In this document: piece by piece, positions 23,942 through 56,328 of the stretch
Numbering within the stretch: position 1 is the first letter of the stretch
How the letters are laid out: every line of letters starts with the position of its first letter
IMG/VR virus record: IMGVR_UViG_3300043775_001610
Coordinates: 46,253-110,252 of that record
Length of the DNA: 64,000 bases
Origin: a virus
Direction: 5' to 3' (one strand)
Notes under the pieces: model-generated
Told to the model about the DNA's origin: nothing
Seen by the model: only the letters and a program-made list of their open reading frames with translations
Database searches by the model: none
Made by a program: the position numbers and the translations under genes

Positions 23942-24151
23942 ATGCTAAGTAATGAAGAAAAAATATACTTAATTGATTTAAAGATAGGTTTCTGGGATAA
24001 ACGCCTGGAGGAAAGTATTAGGGCTAAGCCAATCTTAAATAATTTTGGTAACCAAGGGAAAATAGAAGAAAATCTGATAGACATAGATAACTATGTTAGA
24101 ATTATAGAGGCGCTAAGCCAAGAAAAAAGTACCTTGACTAATCAAGGTTAA
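23942..24151 (+). CDS. Small helical protein after the fibre genes
   Basis: 69 residues, charged and helical (EEKIYLIDLKIGFWDKRLEES). It starts 7 nt after the fibre stop, with no clear ribosome site, so translation is probably coupled. It may be a fibre-assembly helper, like other small coiled-coil proteins that follow fibre genes, but nothing in the sequence proves this. Confidence 0.55.
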   Translation: MLSNEEKIYLIDLKIGFWDKRLEESIRAKPILNNFGNQGKIEENLIDIDNYVRIIEALSQEKSTLTNQG

Positions 24152-24161
24152 ATGCTATAAT
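24131..24161 (+). promoter_or_regulatory. Promoter with a palindrome over the -35
   Basis: TTGACT at 24134-24139, 16-nt spacer, TATAAT at 24156-24161. The -35 lies inside a perfect inverted repeat ACCTTGA-CTAA-TCAAGGT (24131-24148), a plausible operator. The start site would fall at about 24168, within the strong Shine-Dalgarno AAAGGAGG (24165-24172), giving a very short leader for the gene at 24179. Confidence 0.65.
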
Positions 24162-24178
24162 ATGAAAGGAGGAATAAA

Positions 24179-24403
24179 ATGACAACAACACTAACTAATA
24201 TAGAAAAAAAATCTATTATTGACCAGGCTATTAAGCAGCTAGACTACTCTATTTATGCTTCTGAAATAGAAGTTATTCAGATTTCGGCTGTAACGCCAAG
24301 AGACCAAGAGCAGTTTGATGCTTATACGGCAAGAATTGCAAATCTAAATGCCAAGAGATCAGCTCTTGTCGCAGAAGAATTACTATTAACAGAAGAGGAA
24401 TAA
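24179..24403 (+). CDS. Small coiled-coil protein
   Basis: 74 residues, ATG with AAAGGAGG 7 nt upstream, the best ribosome site in this region. The sequence is helical and charged: IEKKSIIDQAIKQLD, then IANLNAKRSALVAEE. It heads a short operon (24179-25022) with its own promoter. Function unknown; its size and place suggest a tail-fibre accessory or assembly protein. Confidence 0.6.
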   Translation: MTTTLTNIEKKSIIDQAIKQLDYSIYASEIEVIQISAVTPRDQEQFDAYTARIANLNAKRSALVAEELLLTEEE

Positions 24404-24596: not shown

Positions 24597-25022
24597 ATGA
24601 CAGAGGTATTTCAAGATGGTGAGCCAGTAGACGCTCAGAAGTTAAGAAAGATGCAAGCCGATATTTCTGCAGCCCTGATGAAAGCAGAAGATACCTATAG
24701 CCTTAGCAAAGCTACAGCAAATGATGTGTCTGTTTTAAATGTTACTCATACAAAAGCATACAGAGTTGTATTTGAAAATGGATTAAATAAAGACAGCGCT
24801 GGTAATACAGAGGACATTATCATGGATTGGAATGGATATACGGATGTATTCCTTACAGCCACACCAAGAGGAAATCTTTATAAGTATAATCTTCAATGGT
24901 CAATTACTGGAGGAATAGGTTCTTTTAAGCTTACCGTTAACAACAAAAGTGGTGCAGCAATTGGCGGAACTCCAACATTTGATATTATTGCTGCTGGTAC
25001 AAAACCAAGCAAAACAGCATAA
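24597..25022 (+). CDS. Putative small structural (fibre-tip or decoration) protein
   Basis: 141 residues. A short helical N-terminus (VDAQKLRKMQADISAALMKAE) is followed by a beta-sandwich-like C-terminal domain rich in Thr, Asn and Gly. This is the build of small fibre-tip or head-decoration proteins: a coiled anchor plus beta head. It is the last gene before the terminator at 25069-25093. Function is inferred. Confidence 0.55.
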   Translation: MTEVFQDGEPVDAQKLRKMQADISAALMKAEDTYSLSKATANDVSVLNVTHTKAYRVVFENGLNKDSAGNTEDIIMDWNGYTDVFLTATPRGNLYKYNLQWSITGGIGSFKLTVNNKSGAAIGGTPTFDIIAAGTKPSKTA

Positions 25023-25028
25023 CTTCTA

Positions 25029-25067
25029 TTGACAATCTCAATAAATATGTTACAATTAATGTAACAT
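25029..25067 (+). promoter_or_regulatory. Promoter with an inverted repeat over the -10
   Basis: TTGACA at 25029-25034, 16-nt spacer, TACAAT at 25051-25056. A perfect inverted repeat ATGTTAC-N7-GTAACAT (25047-25067) covers the -10 and the predicted start site, as expected for a repressor operator. Transcription would start near 25063, a few bases before the terminator hairpin at 25069. Confidence 0.6.
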
Positions 25068-25068
25068 C

Positions 25069-25093
25069 AAAGTCACGTACCCGTGACTTTTTT
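25069..25093 (+). terminator. Rho-independent terminator / attenuator hairpin
   Basis: A perfect 9-bp stem AAAGTCACG-TACC-CGTGACTTT continues into TTT, giving a run of six T. It would end the structural operon. Because a promoter lies immediately upstream, it could also act as an attenuator for the gene at 25111. Confidence 0.8.
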
Positions 25094-25110
25094 ACATATT
25101 AAGGTAAATA

Positions 25111-25911
25111 ATGAGCAACGATTTAAAGTGGATGATTTCATCCGACCAGCAATTCCCATATCAGGATGATAAAATGATTTCACTTTGGTTTAAGGTAATG
25201 AAGTGGTTTAAGCCAGATGTTGTTGATTATCTTGGCGACACAGATGATCAAGCATGCTATAGCAAATATACAGAAGGCCGTTCAGCAGAATTTTTAAATC
25301 TTCATAAGACAGATAGCCGAGATTTAATTGTTCCAATGATGCGACATGAAGCAAAAGGCGCAAGAGATTTTTATACAAAGACTAGAGAGATGCTCCCAGA
25401 GGCACAGCTATTTTCTGCTCTTGGAAATCACGATGTTAGAATTTTTAATTATGTAGATGCAAAGCTTCCAGATTATATTAATGAGGTTACTCCAGAAGCT
25501 CTATGGGGATTAGATTCACTAGGGTATGAATATATTCATTATAATGAATTGCCTAAGCGCCGCTTTGGAGACATCCATGTTCATCATGGTCTCTCTATTG
25601 CATCAACAGGATCAGTCCGAAAAGATATGGAAGATCTTCAAATTTCTTTAATTAGAGGGCACTCTCATAGAATTGCTTCCCACTTAGTTACATATGAATT
25701 AAGAAATAATGGAGAGGGAGAAACTCTTCGTGGCTATGAACTTGGTCACATGTGCGATGAAAAGGGTCCAGGAATGAAGTACATGCAGCACCACGATTGG
25801 CAAAAAGGTTTTGCCATTGCACATATTGTAAATGATTATCCACATATTCAGATGATCCATGTGGCACCAGATTACTCATGTGTTGTTGATGGGAAACTAT
25901 TTACGCTATGA
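25111..25911 (+). CDS. Calcineurin-like metallophosphoesterase
   Basis: 266 residues. The metal-binding motifs appear in family order: SSDQQ near residue 10 (D-x-Q where the family usually has D-x-H), LGDTDD near 41, GNHD near 109, HHG near 152 and GHSH near 177. This is the phage branch of the superfamily, which hydrolyses phosphodiesters or phosphomonoesters with two metal ions. The substrate cannot be read from the sequence; DNA end processing or nucleotide turnover would fit, because the replication genes follow. The stop overlaps the next ATG. Confidence 0.82.
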   Translation: MSNDLKWMISSDQQFPYQDDKMISLWFKVMKWFKPDVVDYLGDTDDQACYSKYTEGRSAEFLNLHKTDSRDLIVPMMRHEAKGARDFYTKTREMLPEAQLFSALGNHDVRIFNYVDAKLPDYINEVTPEALWGLDSLGYEYIHYNELPKRRFGDIHVHHGLSIASTGSVRKDMEDLQISLIRGHSHRIASHLVTYELRNNGEGETLRGYELGHMCDEKGPGMKYMQHHDWQKGFAIAHIVNDYPHIQMIHVAPDYSCVVDGKLFTL

Positions 25912-26096
25912 TGAAATGCAATAAATGCCAGGGGAGAGTTTTTGTCGATAGAGTGTTTTCACAAAAATTACACGTAGAGCTTTTCTGCATGATGTGCGGT
26001 AAAAGATGGATGATTAATAAGGATACGAGTGCACTAGGTAAATGGATAGAAAAAAGAGAAAACAATCAGCTAAGAGCATTCGGTATTTCTTCTTAA
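25908..26096 (+). CDS. Small zinc-ribbon protein
   Basis: 62 residues. Two cysteine pairs, CNKC at residues 4-7 and CMMC at about 28-31, form a four-Cys zinc ribbon, followed by a basic Trp-containing tail. Such proteins usually bind nucleic acid or a protein partner such as RNA polymerase. ATG 25908 and ATG 25911 are equivalent starts. The 3' end overlaps the next gene by 55 bp. Confidence 0.6.
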   Translation: MMKCNKCQGRVFVDRVFSQKLHVELFCMMCGKRWMINKDTSALGKWIEKRENNQLRAFGISS

Positions 26097-26524
26097 ATAA
26101 CAAGATACATAAAGTATTAAGTCATTCAAGATCTAAAGACCAGATGGTTGCTTGGTGCTATCCAGATAAAAAGAGATTGCTATACTCTTATTCACAAGTT
26201 TTAAAAACTATGGAGAATGCATACTCAACTAGTCAGGTAGCTCAAATGCTTGGTAAGCATAAGGTTACTATAGAAGATTATATTTTGGACGGCAAGATAA
26301 GATATCCTCAGAAAGTATATCCAATAGGTAATCCAGATAGTACATGGTATAAGTTTATGTATAGTGAATCGGACATTATGGACATTCATGAGTTTATATT
26401 AGAATCAGGGTATTCTAATAATATGCCTTCAAAAAATGAGATGAAGGCTCTTCTCAAACACAACACTATATTGTATACTAAGACAACAGAAGGGAACTTT
26501 GTGCCAGTATGGAAAGCAGAGTAG
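26042..26524 (+). CDS. MerR/excisionase-type DNA-binding protein
   Basis: 160 residues with a lysine-rich start (MDRKKRKQSAKS). A winged-helix signature lies near 60-90: YSTSQVAQMLGKHKVTIEDY followed by LDGKIRYP, the pattern 'T...A..L.....T...W...G.I' of MerR/Xis helix-turn-helix domains. A short helical region follows. The start overlaps the previous gene; a shorter form from ATG 26144 is possible. As the only clear helix-turn-helix in the early half, it is a candidate regulator of the palindromic promoters. Confidence 0.6.
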   Translation: MDRKKRKQSAKSIRYFFLNNKIHKVLSHSRSKDQMVAWCYPDKKRLLYSYSQVLKTMENAYSTSQVAQMLGKHKVTIEDYILDGKIRYPQKVYPIGNPDSTWYKFMYSESDIMDIHEFILESGYSNNMPSKNEMKALLKHNTILYTKTTEGNFVPVWKAE

Positions 26525-26840: not shown

Positions 26841-27141
26841 AGAACCCTACATCCTACTTTCTTTGTATTCTAATTTATATGAGGAGGCTTATAAGTCAAA
26901 GCCAACCATCAATAGGTACAAGGAGAAGTGGGCGATGCAAGATGTTATAGACAGCATAGGGTTTGACAGAGCTAAAGAAGTTTTAGAGTATTATTTTAAA
27001 ACTGGAAAGAATAGGCACCCGCTAAATTTCTTTTACAACAACTTTGATCGAATAGAGGATATGATGATTCAGATTAAAGAAGATAGAATTAACAGAAGCC
27101 GTCTGTTGCAAGAGACTAAAAGAATGGTTGAGGATAATTAG
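26827..27141 (+). CDS. Hypothetical helical protein upstream of the helicase (loader candidate)
   Basis: 104 residues, GTG start, all-helical and basic in the middle (SKPTINRYKEKWAMQDV, then YYFKTGKNRHPLNFFYNNF). Its last base overlaps the GTG of the DnaB-like helicase. In many phages a small helical protein in this place loads the helicase on DNA, so it is a candidate loader, but I see no loader-specific motif. Confidence 0.55.
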   Translation: MAVNKEPYILLSLYSNLYEEAYKSKPTINRYKEKWAMQDVIDSIGFDRAKEVLEYYFKTGKNRHPLNFFYNNFDRIEDMMIQIKEDRINRSRLLQETKRMVEDN

Positions 27142-28376
27142 TGAATACAGAAGCAGAACTAATTTCAGCAGTTTGTAAAAACAAAGACATAAGCACCATT
27201 CTTGCAGATAATTCAGACGACCTATTTGTATCTCATAAAGATATCTGGGAAGGCCTCAAGTCATACTATTATAAGTTTAGGGCAGTTCCAGAGGCTGGAA
27301 TTTTGCAGGATAAGTTTAAAGACTTTGAGCCAGTTGAAACAAAAGGGGAGACTGGATACTATTTAGACAAACTAAAAAATGAATTTGTTGGCAACAAGCT
27401 AAAGACAATTCTTATGCAGGCTGGCTCATCTCTGAAAGAAGATGCACCATCTAGAGTGCTTGGAACAATGCAGTCTCAACTAGCAAACTTAAGTAGATAC
27501 ACTAATAATGTTAAAGACTTAGATATCACAGACCTTGACTCAGCTGAAAGACACTATGAGTCAGTTAAAACTAGATCTCTAGCAATGGGAGGAAGCCCAG
27601 GAATTTTAACTGGCTTTGAAGCTATAGATAAGGCCTACCCAACTGGTATGGCTCCAGGTCACCTCATTGTTGCAATTGGATGGCCAGGACGAGGAAAGAC
27701 ATGGTTCACATCTTATTTAGCATGCAAAGCTTGGGAGCAAGGGTTTAAGCCAATGATTGTTTCTCTTGAAATGGCTCCAGAAAATATGCGAGATCGAATT
27801 TACACAATGTTAGGATCTGGATTATTTAGAGCCAGCGATCTTTCTAAGGGTGATATTAACATTGATGATTTTAAAACTTGGGGAAAGAAAAAAACCGAAG
27901 GTAAGAATAGTTTTATCCTTGTCTCAAATGAAGGTGCTGGAGAAGTAACACCAGCAACTATTCAAGGAAAGATCGATCAACATAAACCAGATCTAGTTAT
28001 CCTTGACTACCATCAGCTGTTCAATGATAATAAGAGAAGTAATTCTGAAGTTGAAAGAAATAGAAATATCTCAAGAGACTTCAAACTCCTTGCCGTAACA
28101 AATGGAATTCCTATTATTGATATCACTGCTGCAACTGCAGATGATATCTCAGATCAAAAGGAACCCCCAATGATGAGTCAGGTTGCATGGTCAAAAGCCA
28201 TTGAGTATGATGCTGATATGGCTATTGCAATTCATAAGCATGCTAATACAGATCTTATTGAGGTTGTCTCTAGAAAGAATAGACATGGACATGACTTTAG
28301 GTTCTTCCTTGACTGGGATATAAATAGGGGAGTAATTACTCCAATCTATGAAGACCTTCCAGAGCTGAGCAAGTGA
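27141..28376 (+). CDS. dnaB: DnaB-like replicative helicase
   Basis: 411 residues, GTG start. It belongs to the RecA-fold SF4 helicases that unwind the fork. Walker A is GWPGRGKT at residues 180-187 and Walker B is LVILD with Asp289. The second half also carries the glutamate in SLEMAPENM and an arginine-rich segment near 300-320. It is shorter than bacterial DnaB (~450-470), mainly at the N-terminus, as usual in phages. It lies directly before the primase gene, as expected for a helicase-primase pair. Confidence 0.9.
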   Translation: MNTEAELISAVCKNKDISTILADNSDDLFVSHKDIWEGLKSYYYKFRAVPEAGILQDKFKDFEPVETKGETGYYLDKLKNEFVGNKLKTILMQAGSSLKEDAPSRVLGTMQSQLANLSRYTNNVKDLDITDLDSAERHYESVKTRSLAMGGSPGILTGFEAIDKAYPTGMAPGHLIVAIGWPGRGKTWFTSYLACKAWEQGFKPMIVSLEMAPENMRDRIYTMLGSGLFRASDLSKGDINIDDFKTWGKKKTEGKNSFILVSNEGAGEVTPATIQGKIDQHKPDLVILDYHQLFNDNKRSNSEVERNRNISRDFKLLAVTNGIPIIDITAATADDISDQKEPPMMSQVAWSKAIEYDADMAIAIHKHANTDLIEVVSRKNRHGHDFRFFLDWDINRGVITPIYEDLPELSK

Positions 28377-41968: not shown

Positions 41969-42505
41969 ATGAAAACAGTAGGAGATAAGTTAGGAAATTT
42001 TGCAGTTACTGGTGTTAAGCCAGGAGCTTTGTCATATGAAGATTCCTCTTTTGAGGTAATTACACAGGATTCGTTCCCAGGTAAATGGAAGGTTATTGCA
42101 TTTTATCCAAAAGATTTTACATTTGTATGCCCAACAGAGATTGTTGCTTACGATGCTTTAGTTAATGACTTTAACGATAGAGATGCTGTCTTGATGACTG
42201 GATCAGTGGACAATGAGTTCTGTAAAATTGCTTGGAGAAATGCCCACGAGGACCTAAAGAAGACTAATTCATGGTCATTTGCAGATACAGCACACCATTT
42301 GGCTAATGATCTTGGGGTTCAACACTCTTCTGGTGTAACTTACCGTGCCACATTTATTGTTGATCCAGACAATATTATTCAGCATGTTACAGTAAACAAC
42401 CTAGATGTAGGTAGAAACCCAGATGAAACTCTTCGTGTTCTAGATGCTTTGCAAACAGGAGAGCTGTGTGCATGTAATCGATCACTAGGTGGAGAAACTT
42501 TGTAA
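41969..42505 (+). CDS. ahpC: Peroxiredoxin AhpC
   Basis: 178 residues, ATG with AAGGAG. A typical 2-Cys peroxiredoxin: peroxidatic Cys54 in FVCPTE, the Thr/Arg of the active site (Thr preceding in KDFTFVC, Arg in VTYRATFIVD), and a C-terminal Cys pair LCAC near 167-169 for resolution. It reduces H2O2 and organic peroxides. The stop overlaps the ahpD ATG by one base, the bacterial operon order. It probably protects the infected cell from oxidative stress. Confidence 0.92.
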   Translation: MKTVGDKLGNFAVTGVKPGALSYEDSSFEVITQDSFPGKWKVIAFYPKDFTFVCPTEIVAYDALVNDFNDRDAVLMTGSVDNEFCKIAWRNAHEDLKKTNSWSFADTAHHLANDLGVQHSSGVTYRATFIVDPDNIIQHVTVNNLDVGRNPDETLRVLDALQTGELCACNRSLGGETL

Positions 42506-45073: not shown

Positions 45074-47275
45074 TTGACAAGGAATAAGTTATTTAGAATA
45101 ACAGCAGCCACAATGCTTGCATTTGGTTGGCTCTTTATGTCACCCGCTTATTCTGATGATCCACTAAGCTTAGCAGCTCAAGAAATTGAAGAGCTAAACA
45201 ATAGCGTTGACGACCTTGGTTACAAGGATGAATTTATATCCTTAATCCAAGAAGCAAAAGACAAATATGATCTTGCCGTATCTGCAGAAGAAGCCAAGAC
45301 ACAAACCTATGACCTATATGACGACTCCCTTGACGCAAAAGCCACGGCACTTGAAGAAAAAGACTTAGCCCAATCAGCAGTAGACGGACAAACAGTAACA
45401 GTAGACACTGCTTTAGACAATAAGAATGATGCCTACGATGCCCTTGGAGTAGCAAACATCAATCTGTCAAACGCTCAGCAAGCATTAGACAGTGCTGGTT
45501 CTGCTGGTCTGGCATATGATGTTTATAGTTTAATTAGGGTTGATGGCCTTGCAGCCACAGATGAATTCTTATGTAGTGGAACACTAAATGGAAACTATAT
45601 GACTCGCCCAGTTTGTGGTAATAGATATGAAAACTTTATAGTTAAATTTACTGGACAGATAACTGTACCATCATGGTTTACACAAACTTATTTTGCTGGT
45701 TATACAGATGATGGTTTTAGAATGTATATTGATGGAGCATTAGTTGTTAATAATTGGATAGAGCAAGGAACAACTTGGAGTGCTTATTCTCCTGTATATG
45801 ATGTAACTGTAGACAAAACATTTGATGTAGAGATATGGTGGTACAACGGTGGAGGTCCTGGATCCTATCATCTTGGATGGGCTATCCCTGGAGGATGGAC
45901 TGGTGCAGGTTGTGACTATGCTGGCAACCCAAGAGTATGGGGACAAGACTTTAGTTGCAATCTTAATACATTTTCTCATGGATCTGGAGCAACCCAAGAA
46001 CAAACAAACGCCTACAACAACGCACTTGCTGCAAAGAACTCAGCACAAGATGTATATAATGACAAACTAAATGTTTATAATCAAGCAGTTTCAACATTAA
46101 ATAATTATAATCAAATATTAGTTAATAAAACAAACGAATATAACAACGCAGTTTTAAATGTTGCCACTGCATTGCAAAATAAAAATAATGCTGAAGATGC
46201 ATACGAGCAGTCAATAAATAATCTTAATAGTGCGATTGATAACGCATGGCGTTACTATGAAGAACAATTACAAAGAGAGATTCAGTCTGCTATTGCTCAG
46301 GCAGCAGCTAACGCTGCAGCCAATCAGCCTACTCCAGAACCAACTCCAGAACCAACTCCAGAACCTACCCCAGAACCAAGTACTGAACCTACAGATGAAC
46401 CTACAGATGATCCATCTCCAAAGCCTACAGAGGAACCTACAAATGAGCCAACAGAGGAGCCAAGCCCTGAGCCTACAGAAGAGCCTACTGAGGAACCAAA
46501 GCCCACTCCTACGCCAAAGCCCACTCCTACACCAAAGCCATCTACTGAGCCTACAGCAGAGCCTACAGAGGAACCAACTCCTGAACCTACAGTAGAACCT
46601 ACACCAGACCCAGAACCAACTACAGAACCAACTACAGAGCCTACTGAGGAACCCACAGAAGAGCCTACGCCTGAACCCTCACCAGAACCAGGACCAGATC
46701 CTGAGCCTGAAGAAAACCCATGGACTGAGCCAGATGTAGAAGTTAAAGATCAGGTTTTAGCAGAACTTATTCCTGAAAAGGGTACAGGAACAGCAGAAGA
46801 TTTATCTGGAGTTATTGCTAACCTTACAAGCAAGGATAACAAGTTAGTTACTCTTTCCCCTGAACAAGTAACAGCAGTTAGCCAAACACTTAGAGCCTTG
46901 ACTCAAGAAGCAAAGGCTGAGGTTGCAGAAGACCTTGGGATTAAGCCTTCAGAGGTTGCACAAATTGCTGAGCAGATGAAGTCTAACCCAGCACTGGCAG
47001 AAGCATTCGTTGAGTTTACAGATAGACAGGCGGAGGCAGGAGAAACTCCAATGCCATTTACATTAGCAGATGCAGTAACAGAAGTACAAACAGAAGCATT
47101 CTTAGCAGACCCACTTGGAACGGTATTTGCGGTGGACCCAGTAGAACTACTATCTAATTTTTCTGAATTAGGTATGGATATGACAGATGATCAAAGAGAA
47201 AAAGCGCAGGAAGTAATTGTCCCAGTGGTCATTGCATCACAAATTGCAGGGGCAATGATAAGGAGGAACAAATGA
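45074..47275 (+). CDS. Secreted PA14-domain surface protein with a Pro-rich stalk
   Basis: 733 residues from TTG 45074. The N-terminus has the signal-peptide shape: RNK, a hydrophobic core ending in FMSPAYS, then mature protein. Coiled-coil helices flank residues ~25-140. A PA14 domain follows at about 150-285 (WFTQTYFAGYTDDGFRMY, then IEQGTTWSAY, WWYNGGG), a carbohydrate-binding beta-barrel. Next come more coiled coil (~300-410), a long Glu/Pro/Thr repeat stalk (~418-545) and an acidic domain ending in a hydrophobic segment and RRNK (VVIASQIAGAMIRRNK). It looks like a protein exported and held in the membrane or wall of the host, or on the virion. It lies just before the lysis genes. TTG start is the weak point; ATG 45113 would cut the signal peptide. 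Confidence 0.75.
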   Translation: MTRNKLFRITAATMLAFGWLFMSPAYSDDPLSLAAQEIEELNNSVDDLGYKDEFISLIQEAKDKYDLAVSAEEAKTQTYDLYDDSLDAKATALEEKDLAQSAVDGQTVTVDTALDNKNDAYDALGVANINLSNAQQALDSAGSAGLAYDVYSLIRVDGLAATDEFLCSGTLNGNYMTRPVCGNRYENFIVKFTGQITVPSWFTQTYFAGYTDDGFRMYIDGALVVNNWIEQGTTWSAYSPVYDVTVDKTFDVEIWWYNGGGPGSYHLGWAIPGGWTGAGCDYAGNPRVWGQDFSCNLNTFSHGSGATQEQTNAYNNALAAKNSAQDVYNDKLNVYNQAVSTLNNYNQILVNKTNEYNNAVLNVATALQNKNNAEDAYEQSINNLNSAIDNAWRYYEEQLQREIQSAIAQAAANAAANQPTPEPTPEPTPEPTPEPSTEPTDEPTDDPSPKPTEEPTNEPTEEPSPEPTEEPTEEPKPTPTPKPTPTPKPSTEPTAEPTEEPTPEPTVEPTPDPEPTTEPTTEPTEEPTEEPTPEPSPEPGPDPEPEENPWTEPDVEVKDQVLAELIPEKGTGTAEDLSGVIANLTSKDNKLVTLSPEQVTAVSQTLRALTQEAKAEVAEDLGIKPSEVAQIAEQMKSNPALAEAFVEFTDRQAEAGETPMPFTLADAVTEVQTEAFLADPLGTVFAVDPVELLSNFSELGMDMTDDQREKAQEVIVPVVIASQIAGAMIRRNK
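46330..46710 (+). repeat. Glu-Pro-Thr repeat stalk (TPEP-like)
   Basis: Imperfect repeats of 6-12 bp coding for T-P-E-P / T-E-E-P / P-T-P-K type units form the stalk of the PA14 gene. The unit changes between TPEP, TEEP and TPKP, as expected after slippage during replication. The complement of this stretch produces a spurious antisense frame. Confidence 0.85.
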
Positions 47276-50116: not shown

Positions 50117-50408
50117 ATTAGATTCAGATGAGCAGTCAGTAAGATGGTGGCATTTAGCTGCATGCAGTGGAATGAACACAAATCTATTCTTTGATCAATA
50201 TGAGTCAGATATTAATATGGCTAAGGCTATAGACCAGTGCTGTTTGTCATGCCCAGTTAGATCCATTTGTTATGAGTCTGGATTAAAAAACAGCGAGTAC
50301 GGTGTTTGGGGTGGTGTTTTTCTTTCATCTGGTTTAGTTGATAAAATGAAAAATGCTCACAAAACAAAAGAAATTTGGAAACAGCTAAAGGCGAACAAAA
50401 ATGTCTAA
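50097..50408 (+). CDS. WhiB-family iron-sulfur transcription factor
   Basis: 103 residues. The four Fe-S cysteines are Cys23 (ACSGM), Cys49 and Cys52 (CLSC) and Cys58 (RSIC), followed by the G(V)WGG turn at 69-73 and a basic C-terminal helix. WhiB proteins are found in actinobacteria and their phages, and bind the primary sigma factor. In mycobacteriophage TM4 such a protein represses host genes. Here it probably redirects host transcription. The start at ATG 50097 overlaps the previous gene. Confidence 0.9.
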   Translation: MSSILNKLDSDEQSVRWWHLAACSGMNTNLFFDQYESDINMAKAIDQCCLSCPVRSICYESGLKNSEYGVWGGVFLSSGLVDKMKNAHKTKEIWKQLKANKNV

Positions 50409-55969: not shown

Positions 55970-56122
55970 ATGGAATGGGATCACTTTCACGTTATTCAAA
56001 AAAAAGTTTTAAATGAATTAATTAAAGAGATGGAAAGTTTAGAAATACCACCAGACTGGAGACCAAGAGAGGTTTTGAGTTTAGTAATTAGAAAATTAAA
56101 AGAAAAAGAGGAATCATGTTAA
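55970..56122 (+). CDS. 50-residue hypothetical protein
   Basis: From ATG 55970, next to the -10-like box; a longer frame would read back into the terminator. It starts MEWDHFHVIQ and is charged and helical throughout (KKVLNELIKEMESL, then LSLVIRKLKEKEES). It overlaps the histone-like gene by 7 bp. No family recognised. Confidence 0.5.
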   Translation: MEWDHFHVIQKKVLNELIKEMESLEIPPDWRPREVLSLVIRKLKEKEESC

Positions 56123-56328
56123 CTAGATTAAAGTTTAAAATTTTTGGTTGGCTACGTGTCACACCAAAAGAAGCTATGTTTGAAAAAGTTATTACGGATG
56201 CAATTCTAGCATCAATTCAGGCACCAGCCAAGAAGACAGCCAAGAAGGCACCAGCTAAGAAGACAGCCAAGAAGGCACCAGCTAAGAAGGCGGCTAAGAA
56301 GGCACCAGCTAAGAAGGCAGCTAAGTAA
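56116..56328 (+). CDS. Histone-H1-like Lys/Ala/Pro repeat protein
   Basis: 70 residues. An N-terminal hydrophobic helix (KFKIFGWLRVTPKEAMFEKV...) leads to a tail of about 34 residues of APAKK(T/A)AKK repeats (56217-56325). Such tails bind DNA without sequence preference, as in bacterial H1-like proteins. The tail codes Lys as AAG. It may compact phage DNA or bind host chromosome. The gene overlaps neighbours at both ends. Confidence 0.7.
   Translation: MLTRLKFKIFGWLRVTPKEAMFEKVITDAILASIQAPAKKTAKKAPAKKTAKKAPAKKAAKKAPAKKAAK

Follow-up and report, generated by a model that had tools for sequence, protein, structure and literature searches.

The window (the whole 64,000-nt stretch that was analysed, comprising bases 46253-110252 of a 110,252-base IMG/VR virus record with 37.8% G+C) carries, at 25029-25093, a compact module in which a promoter runs directly into a covarying hairpin and a constrained U-tract, at the border between tail-side genes and genes for DNA replication. 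We lean, if only slightly, towards reading this module as a terminator-gated promoter at the tail/replication boundary, which appears to be the most economical account of the promoter, the covarying hairpin and the constrained U-tract taken together, and which would also end transcription of the tail genes. Host RNA polymerase would start at about 25063; the nascent RNA would fold into the hairpin at 25069-25090 and meet the U-tract, so that most transcripts would end at ~30 nt by default. Transcripts that read through would express a metallophosphoesterase (MPE), a helix-turn-helix (HTH) protein and the replication genes, and the same terminator would stop transcription arriving from the variable tail-side gene. 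The promoter, the hairpin, the U-tract, their placement and their constraint can be read from the DNA directly; the start site, termination, the use of read-through as a control point and any antiterminator are predictions. The module sits where structural genes give way to DNA-replication genes in a large phage group, probably one of fresh water, and it is small enough for a plasmid reporter.

A promoter, a hairpin and a U-tract between two gene blocks

The module lies between the last tail-side ORF (24597-25022, plus strand), whose stop codon stands 6 nt before the -35 element, and the MPE gene (25111-25911, plus strand; phrog_221, E 5.9e-52), which is the first gene behind it and is preceded by a Shine-Dalgarno-like AAGG at 25101-25104 on the same strand. 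Upstream are long ORFs of up to 3514 aa, taken as tail genes by their position. Downstream, the MPE is followed by a MerR-like HTH protein (26042-26524, plus strand; HTH_17 match), which is the third ORF behind the module, and by a DnaB-like replicative helicase (27141-28376, plus strand; phrog_19, E 4.4e-63, and PF03796), with which the replication genes begin and which is accompanied by a primase, an SSB, a DNA polymerase and a UvsX-like recombinase. The annotated order in Streptomyces phage Comrade is the same (minor tail protein, MPE, HTH, helicase), and Streptomyces phage Circinus follows it with the tail label absent; Trina has a minor tail protein, then the MPE, then a helicase, and NiceHouse a minor tail protein, the MPE and an HTH gene. 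A WhiB-family match at window 50145-50318 (PF02467, 47.5 bits) is the sole WhiB gene in the record above Pfam's cut-off, and WhiB is a marker for actinobacterial phages according to PMC6802176. Elsewhere in the window, two ORFs contain coding repeats: ORF 45074-47275 has a 12-nt Pro/Glu/Thr-type array at 46316-46709, and ORF 56116-56328 an array rich in Lys, Ala and Pro, spaced at 12/15 nt, at 56192-56325.

Read directly, the promoter consists of a -35 TTGACA (25029-25034, plus strand) and, after a 16-nt spacer, an extended -10, TGt-TACAAT (25048-25056, plus strand), in which TGn occupies 25048-25050 and TACAAT 25051-25056. The hexamers match at 11 of 12 positions, and their spacing falls within the 16-18 nt of sigma-70-type promoters. 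By itself such a match is weak: over 18 kb, 55 were found against 58.9 in shuffled sequence, the module's being one of three that score 11/12. What sets it apart is what follows. On both strands of the 110-kb record there are 75 promoter-like sites (at least 10/12 matches), four of them followed by a hairpin and a single one, the module itself, by a hairpin plus U-tract, a count that rules out a general leader habit of the phage. A search of the record for sigma-70 region 2 gave no match. Another promoter-like site, TTGACT-16-TATAAT at window 24131-24163, stands before a small ORF (24179-24403), with an inverted repeat, ACCTTGACTAATCAAGGT, overlying its -35.

The hairpin with its U-tract (25069-25093, plus strand) reads AAAGTCACG-TACC-CGTGACTTTTTT. 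Its 9-bp stem is made of the arms AAAGTCACG (25069-25077) and CGTGACTTT (25082-25090), with the loop TACC at 25078-25081, and the TTTTTT of the U-tract occupies 25088-25093; the whole has the form of an intrinsic terminator, a GC-containing hairpin directly before a U-tract. The stem would begin ~6 nt after the predicted start, and the corresponding RNA of ~31 nt (25063-25093, plus strand) is predicted to fold at -10.7 kcal/mol (z -5.6), as well as none of 200 shuffled sequences. One terminator scan of the window left this hairpin out, perhaps because its T-run was absorbed by the stem; a separate scan finds it.

Two Rfam scans matched no known riboswitch or other RNA family to the module: at the gathering score the window yielded only tRNAs, and a permissive scan gave nothing near the module, its best hit, with E 0.22, scoring 23.7 bits where the cut-off is 51.4. 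The full inverted repeat described below and the hairpin each occur at one exact place in the 110-kb record, at the module. An exact-pattern scan of genome_contigs for the hairpin with U6 returned three stretches (L364, L365 and L366), titled Saccharibacteria, Priestia aryabhattai and a Cytophagaceae MAG, which are perhaps unrelated terminators. The strongest terminator-like site on the plus strand, at 41975-42040 of the record (1975-2040 in L086), lies after a 349-aa ORF and is followed by a promoter-like TATAAT and then the next ORF, the usual order of terminator then promoter, unlike that of the module.

A terminator that served insulation alone would more naturally precede the promoter, which counts against the gated reading; there is no room for a terminator before this promoter, because the tail-side gene ends a few nucleotides before the -35, the stop codon lying a median of 4 nt from it in 159 relatives.

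Constraint on the hairpin and U-tract among relatives

Relatives were picked by their MPE protein, so that the DNA under test played no part in the choice. In viral_contigs 534 relatives matched the window's MPE, of which the best 80 were used, and a second, more distant MPE drew at least 596, of which again the best 80 were used; the two sets have no locus or upstream region in common. Of these 160 loci, 159 had 120 nt upstream, the exclusion being L273, which lies at a contig start and still shows the -10 and the hairpin. A promoter with at most one mismatch in the -35 stands before the MPE in all 159 testable loci (111 of 111 distinct upstreams), with TTGACA exact in 158. A TTTTTT occurs within 50 nt before the start codon in 119 of the 159 loci (84 of 111 distinct upstreams). 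In 156 of the 159 a hairpin begins 8-15 nt downstream of the -10, and in 155 it has at least 7 pairs. Such conservation rules out a chance match as an account of the module, and the claim of the sequence-only reading that a promoter is joined at once to a terminator-like hairpin at the tail/replication border is borne out by direct reading and by the constraint on stem and U-tract.

Two pattern scans added at least 119 stretches each; these are biased toward the module and were used for sequence variety, the context of the hairpin-pattern matches having been checked for a part. In all there are 301 loci with a recognisable MPE start (one too short), representing 165 distinct upstreams, 163 of them with the promoter; it is missing from two distant ones, L266, which is Rhodococcus phage Trina, and L350. 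Among 148 distinct promoter-pattern matches, 115 stand before an MPE by script and three more by eye (L087, L095 and L250), and the remaining 30 lie in other contexts, by eye without this hairpin. Changes were counted by parsimony on a FastTree tree of MPE genes (151 sequences, 300 branches), from which 12 of 163 sequences were left off for a short MPE, including L225, whose -35 is TTTACA. Recombination between leader and MPE could inflate all of these change counts, and the comparison from site to site stands. The yardstick is the third codon positions of the MPE, with a mean of 29.5 changes.

Against it, the six -35 positions, at the left edge of the conserved block, changed 0, 0, 0, 0, 0 and 2 times and those of the extended -10 region 0-22 times each (151 sequences), whereas nine spacer positions changed 42-63 times each, more than third codon positions do. 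The -35 is thus a constrained island, with a variable gene end on one side and a variable spacer on the other. Across 125 distinct regions the spacer is 16 nt long in 121, the TGn extension is present in 121 and the distance from the -10 to the start of the hairpin is 9-14 nt in 123.

The stem covaries and its position is kept in relatives. Its nine pairs show 23 co-changes on tree branches against 1.2 expected, 21 of which leave a pair; with the partner shifted by 1-3 columns there are 4-12 co-changes, of which 1-7 are paired. Loop positions, by comparison, underwent 29-36 changes, about the third-codon rate, and 40 loop sequences occur among the 125 distinct regions. A tiny RNA, one of the products suggested from the sequence at the outset, is disfavoured as a trans-acting product because the loop changes as often as third codon positions; the prediction of a 31-nt RNA with a terminator hairpin fits such a product, the Rfam scans found nothing of the kind near the module, with tRNAs alone at the gathering score, and we consider it very improbable.

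The U-tract is constrained as well. Its outer four positions, beyond the first two, changed 3, 2, 9 and 11 times, and the four columns just downstream 32, 29, 14 and 16 times. The U next to the stem changed 3 times and its possible partner A 23 times with gaps counted as a state, or 2 and 15 times with gaps not counted; this U is far steadier than the facing A, and therefore pairing alone does not explain the constraint. Constraint on the U positions beyond pairing is what an intrinsic terminator would predict. Among 82 distinct protein-fetched regions the T-run has 6 or more T in 59 and fewer than 5 in 18; when regions fetched by pattern are included, these counts become 98 and 20 of 125. Several relatives count against gating, because their hairpin is retained although the U-tract is shortened or absent, as in L274, in L046 (CTTAATAT), where the stem reaches 11 bp and the U-tract is lost, and in a clade with the stem AAGCCACG, where only four U precede AUAU. 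Three of the 159 loci have no hairpin at the usual place, which also counts against it. The earlier proposal of an attenuator or insulator nevertheless survives as the best reading; termination itself is predicted.

Beyond the close group, nine of 11 Streptomyces phages of the Comrade kind that were examined have TTGAC(A/T)-17/18-TANNNT and then a strong GC hairpin before the MPE: Comrade, Forrest, Phredrick, Sham, TunaTartare, Moab, Annadreamy and Kenrey (Loccivirinae by their records) and the unclassified Francob. No U6 tract was found after the hairpin in these nine. Circinus and Wakanda (Loccivirinae), in which another gene lies between HNH and MPE, gave no promoter-like pair of at least 9/12 in the stretch before the MPE. 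Persimmon, Bordeaux and LilMartin (Boydwoodruffvirinae, Streptomyces) have hexamers of 9-10/12 with folds of only 0 to -4.8 kcal/mol, and before the MPE of the Rhodococcus phages NiceHouse, Grayson and Trina there is no promoter-like pair of at least 9/12 and no comparable hairpin. Three distant loci were fetched with the NiceHouse MPE: L350 has no promoter, L349 has hexamers of 9/12 with a small hairpin, and L351 has TTGACA-17-TAGACT with a hairpin and without a U-tract. In L351 and the Streptomyces phages the hairpin lies ~7-16 nt after the -10. Several of the Streptomyces phage leaders L352-L358, L362 and L267, upstream of the MPE, carry, by eye, inverted-repeat-like CACAACTTGTG or CTCAACTTGTTTGAG in the -35/-10 spacer, possibly an operator that is placed differently.

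That Streptomyces relatives have the hairpin but no U6 tract tells against gating and is the main support for another explanation, namely that a 5'-terminal hairpin protects the MPE/replication mRNA, at its leader, against decay that depends on the 5' end, the U-rich stretch being incidental or helping ribosome access. Consistent with it, the stem, 6 nt from the predicted start, would lie at the extreme 5' end, and relatives whose U-tract is weak or absent still have it. Stem-loops at the 5' end are known to stabilise mRNA, as for ompA, papA and aprE in work cited by PMC3997798, and the module resembles the ompA type in placing a stem-loop a few nucleotides from the mRNA 5' end; it differs from that type in carrying a constrained U-tract in most members of its group. 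A protective hairpin would leave the constrained, unpaired U positions unexplained, and any hairpin in this position is confined to four of the record's 75 promoter-like sites, so we hold this explanation to be rather unlikely. Mycobacterial RNA polymerase, in 2014 work by Czyz et al., is said to need a U-tract.

The inverted repeat over the -10 and the genes behind the module

An inverted repeat, ATGTTACA-ATTAA-TGTAACAT (25047-25067; 8+5+8), read directly, lies over the -10 and the predicted start and is a possible operator. A repressor that covers the -10 and the start site via this repeat would be compatible with a gated promoter. Pairing at 7 or all 8 of the arm positions is seen in 110 of 151 sequences, where 1.0 would be expected with shuffled right sides, a comparison that is not a probability since the sequences are related; among distinct arm pairs it is seen in 40 of 72. 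A GCTAC is matched by a GTAGC in some relatives, which speaks for an operator, and by eye the repeat spans 19-23 nt in relatives. Against it, the 16 co-changes of the repeat (2.8 expected) fall within the 9-17 of shifted controls, and the excess over expectation thus reflects uneven branches; by number of co-changes the palindrome does no better than those controls as a covarying structure. Co-changes that leave a pair number 11 in register and 2-8 out of register, which we treat as a hint only. The repeat is moreover gone in L207, L245, L269, L307 and others, where promoter and hairpin are kept. The operator-like character that had been proposed is thus supported in part, by the pairing, and we regard the repeat as possibly an operator but not as indispensable to the module; an operator here seems a tentative and somewhat unlikely reading. 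A repeated operator network in the record is rejected, the next matches listed for the inverted repeat carrying 2 mismatches.

The first gene that a terminator-gated promoter would control may give a reason for gating. The MPE family matches 734 phage records by tblastn, 499 of them Mycobacterium phages, and the MPE at 25111-25911 is about 20-27% identical to Mycobacterium phage metallophosphoesterases among the matches listed. One of the cluster A mycobacteriophage MPEs, gp48 of A10ZJ24, is reported in PMC12287305 to be early, toxic to the host and needed to kill M. tuberculosis. A toxic early family member would be a reason to gate the MPE, gp48 being likened to it by family only.

The HTH protein is perhaps a candidate regulator of the module. 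Of the 160 protein-fetched loci 157 encode it, and in the remaining three the contig stops short of its place. Among the 53 members aligned, 22 match HTH_17, with E-values up to 0.001. The structural model (pLDDT 82) has a MerR protein as its best PDB match, a weak one at E 0.065, and strongly resembles the HTH protein of Streptomyces phage BillNye (E 6.1e-13). An MPE no less than 96% identical to that of the window occurs in 73 protein-fetched loci, and 38 of these have an HTH protein less than 78% identical; divergence of this gene so far beyond that of the MPE suggests allele exchange or a fast change of specificity.

Comparison with known promoter-terminator arrangements

A search of the literature, in a limited library, found no report of this phage element in which a promoter stands directly before a terminator. 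One of the closest known arrangements is lambda pR'-tR' with Q, which is alike in having a promoter, then an intrinsic terminator, and a -10-like sequence near the start; in Q systems the stretch transcribed first carries a pause element that resembles a -10 (both according to PMC6606751). In the module a -10-like TAACAT lies in the right arm of the repeat at about +1, its conservation inseparable from that of the inverted repeat. Lambda tR' stands ~194 nt from the start, a terminator much farther out than the module's at ~6 nt, and pR'-tR' precedes late genes, whereas the module precedes the MPE and replication genes. Lambda Q needs a site between -35 and -10, and the module's spacer is unconserved at its 42-63 changes per site. 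PF06530 (Phage_antitermQ), the one Q family searched, has no match in the record, which may be incomplete, and NusG has none there either, which counts against gating also. On the two points of spacer element and Phage_antitermQ, the module thus appears to lie outside the lambdoid Q kind.

The AlpA-controlled promoters are alike in having a predicted intrinsic terminator soon after the start; at alpB and PA0807 of Pseudomonas aeruginosa the predicted terminators begin 54 and 26 nt after it, according to PMC7969949. They differ from the module, whose hairpin lies ~6 nt after the predicted start and whose spacer holds no conserved element. A switch that works by antitermination, as with lambda Q or AlpA, in which a phage factor loads at the promoter and polymerase then passes the terminator, would draw on this likeness of architecture, on TAACAT as an analogue of the Q-system pause element and on the MerR-like HTH protein so regularly encoded behind the module. 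Yet the -35/-10 spacer, the seat of Q and AlpA sites, is the fastest-changing part here, the antiterminator families named above have no match in the record, and gene position alone ties the HTH protein to the module; we think such a switch distinctly unlikely. More speculative still, and doubtful to us, is a condensed antitermination gate that would fit a promoter, a loading site over the -10/+1 and a terminator into 65 bp. A phage factor acting there, for which the MerR-like HTH protein is a candidate, would decide whether the MPE and replication genes are read, and the gate would be common to many actinophages and would recur, with a different sequence, in Loccivirinae Streptomyces phages.

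The leader of the Streptomyces phages of the Comrade kind is like the module in its promoter, its strong hairpin directly after the start and its place before the MPE. It is unlike the module in its GC-rich stem, its unrelated sequence and its lack of a U6 tract, and no palindrome over the -10 was noticed in it. The leader form that the close group and the Streptomyces phages share could have arisen either by common descent or by convergence.
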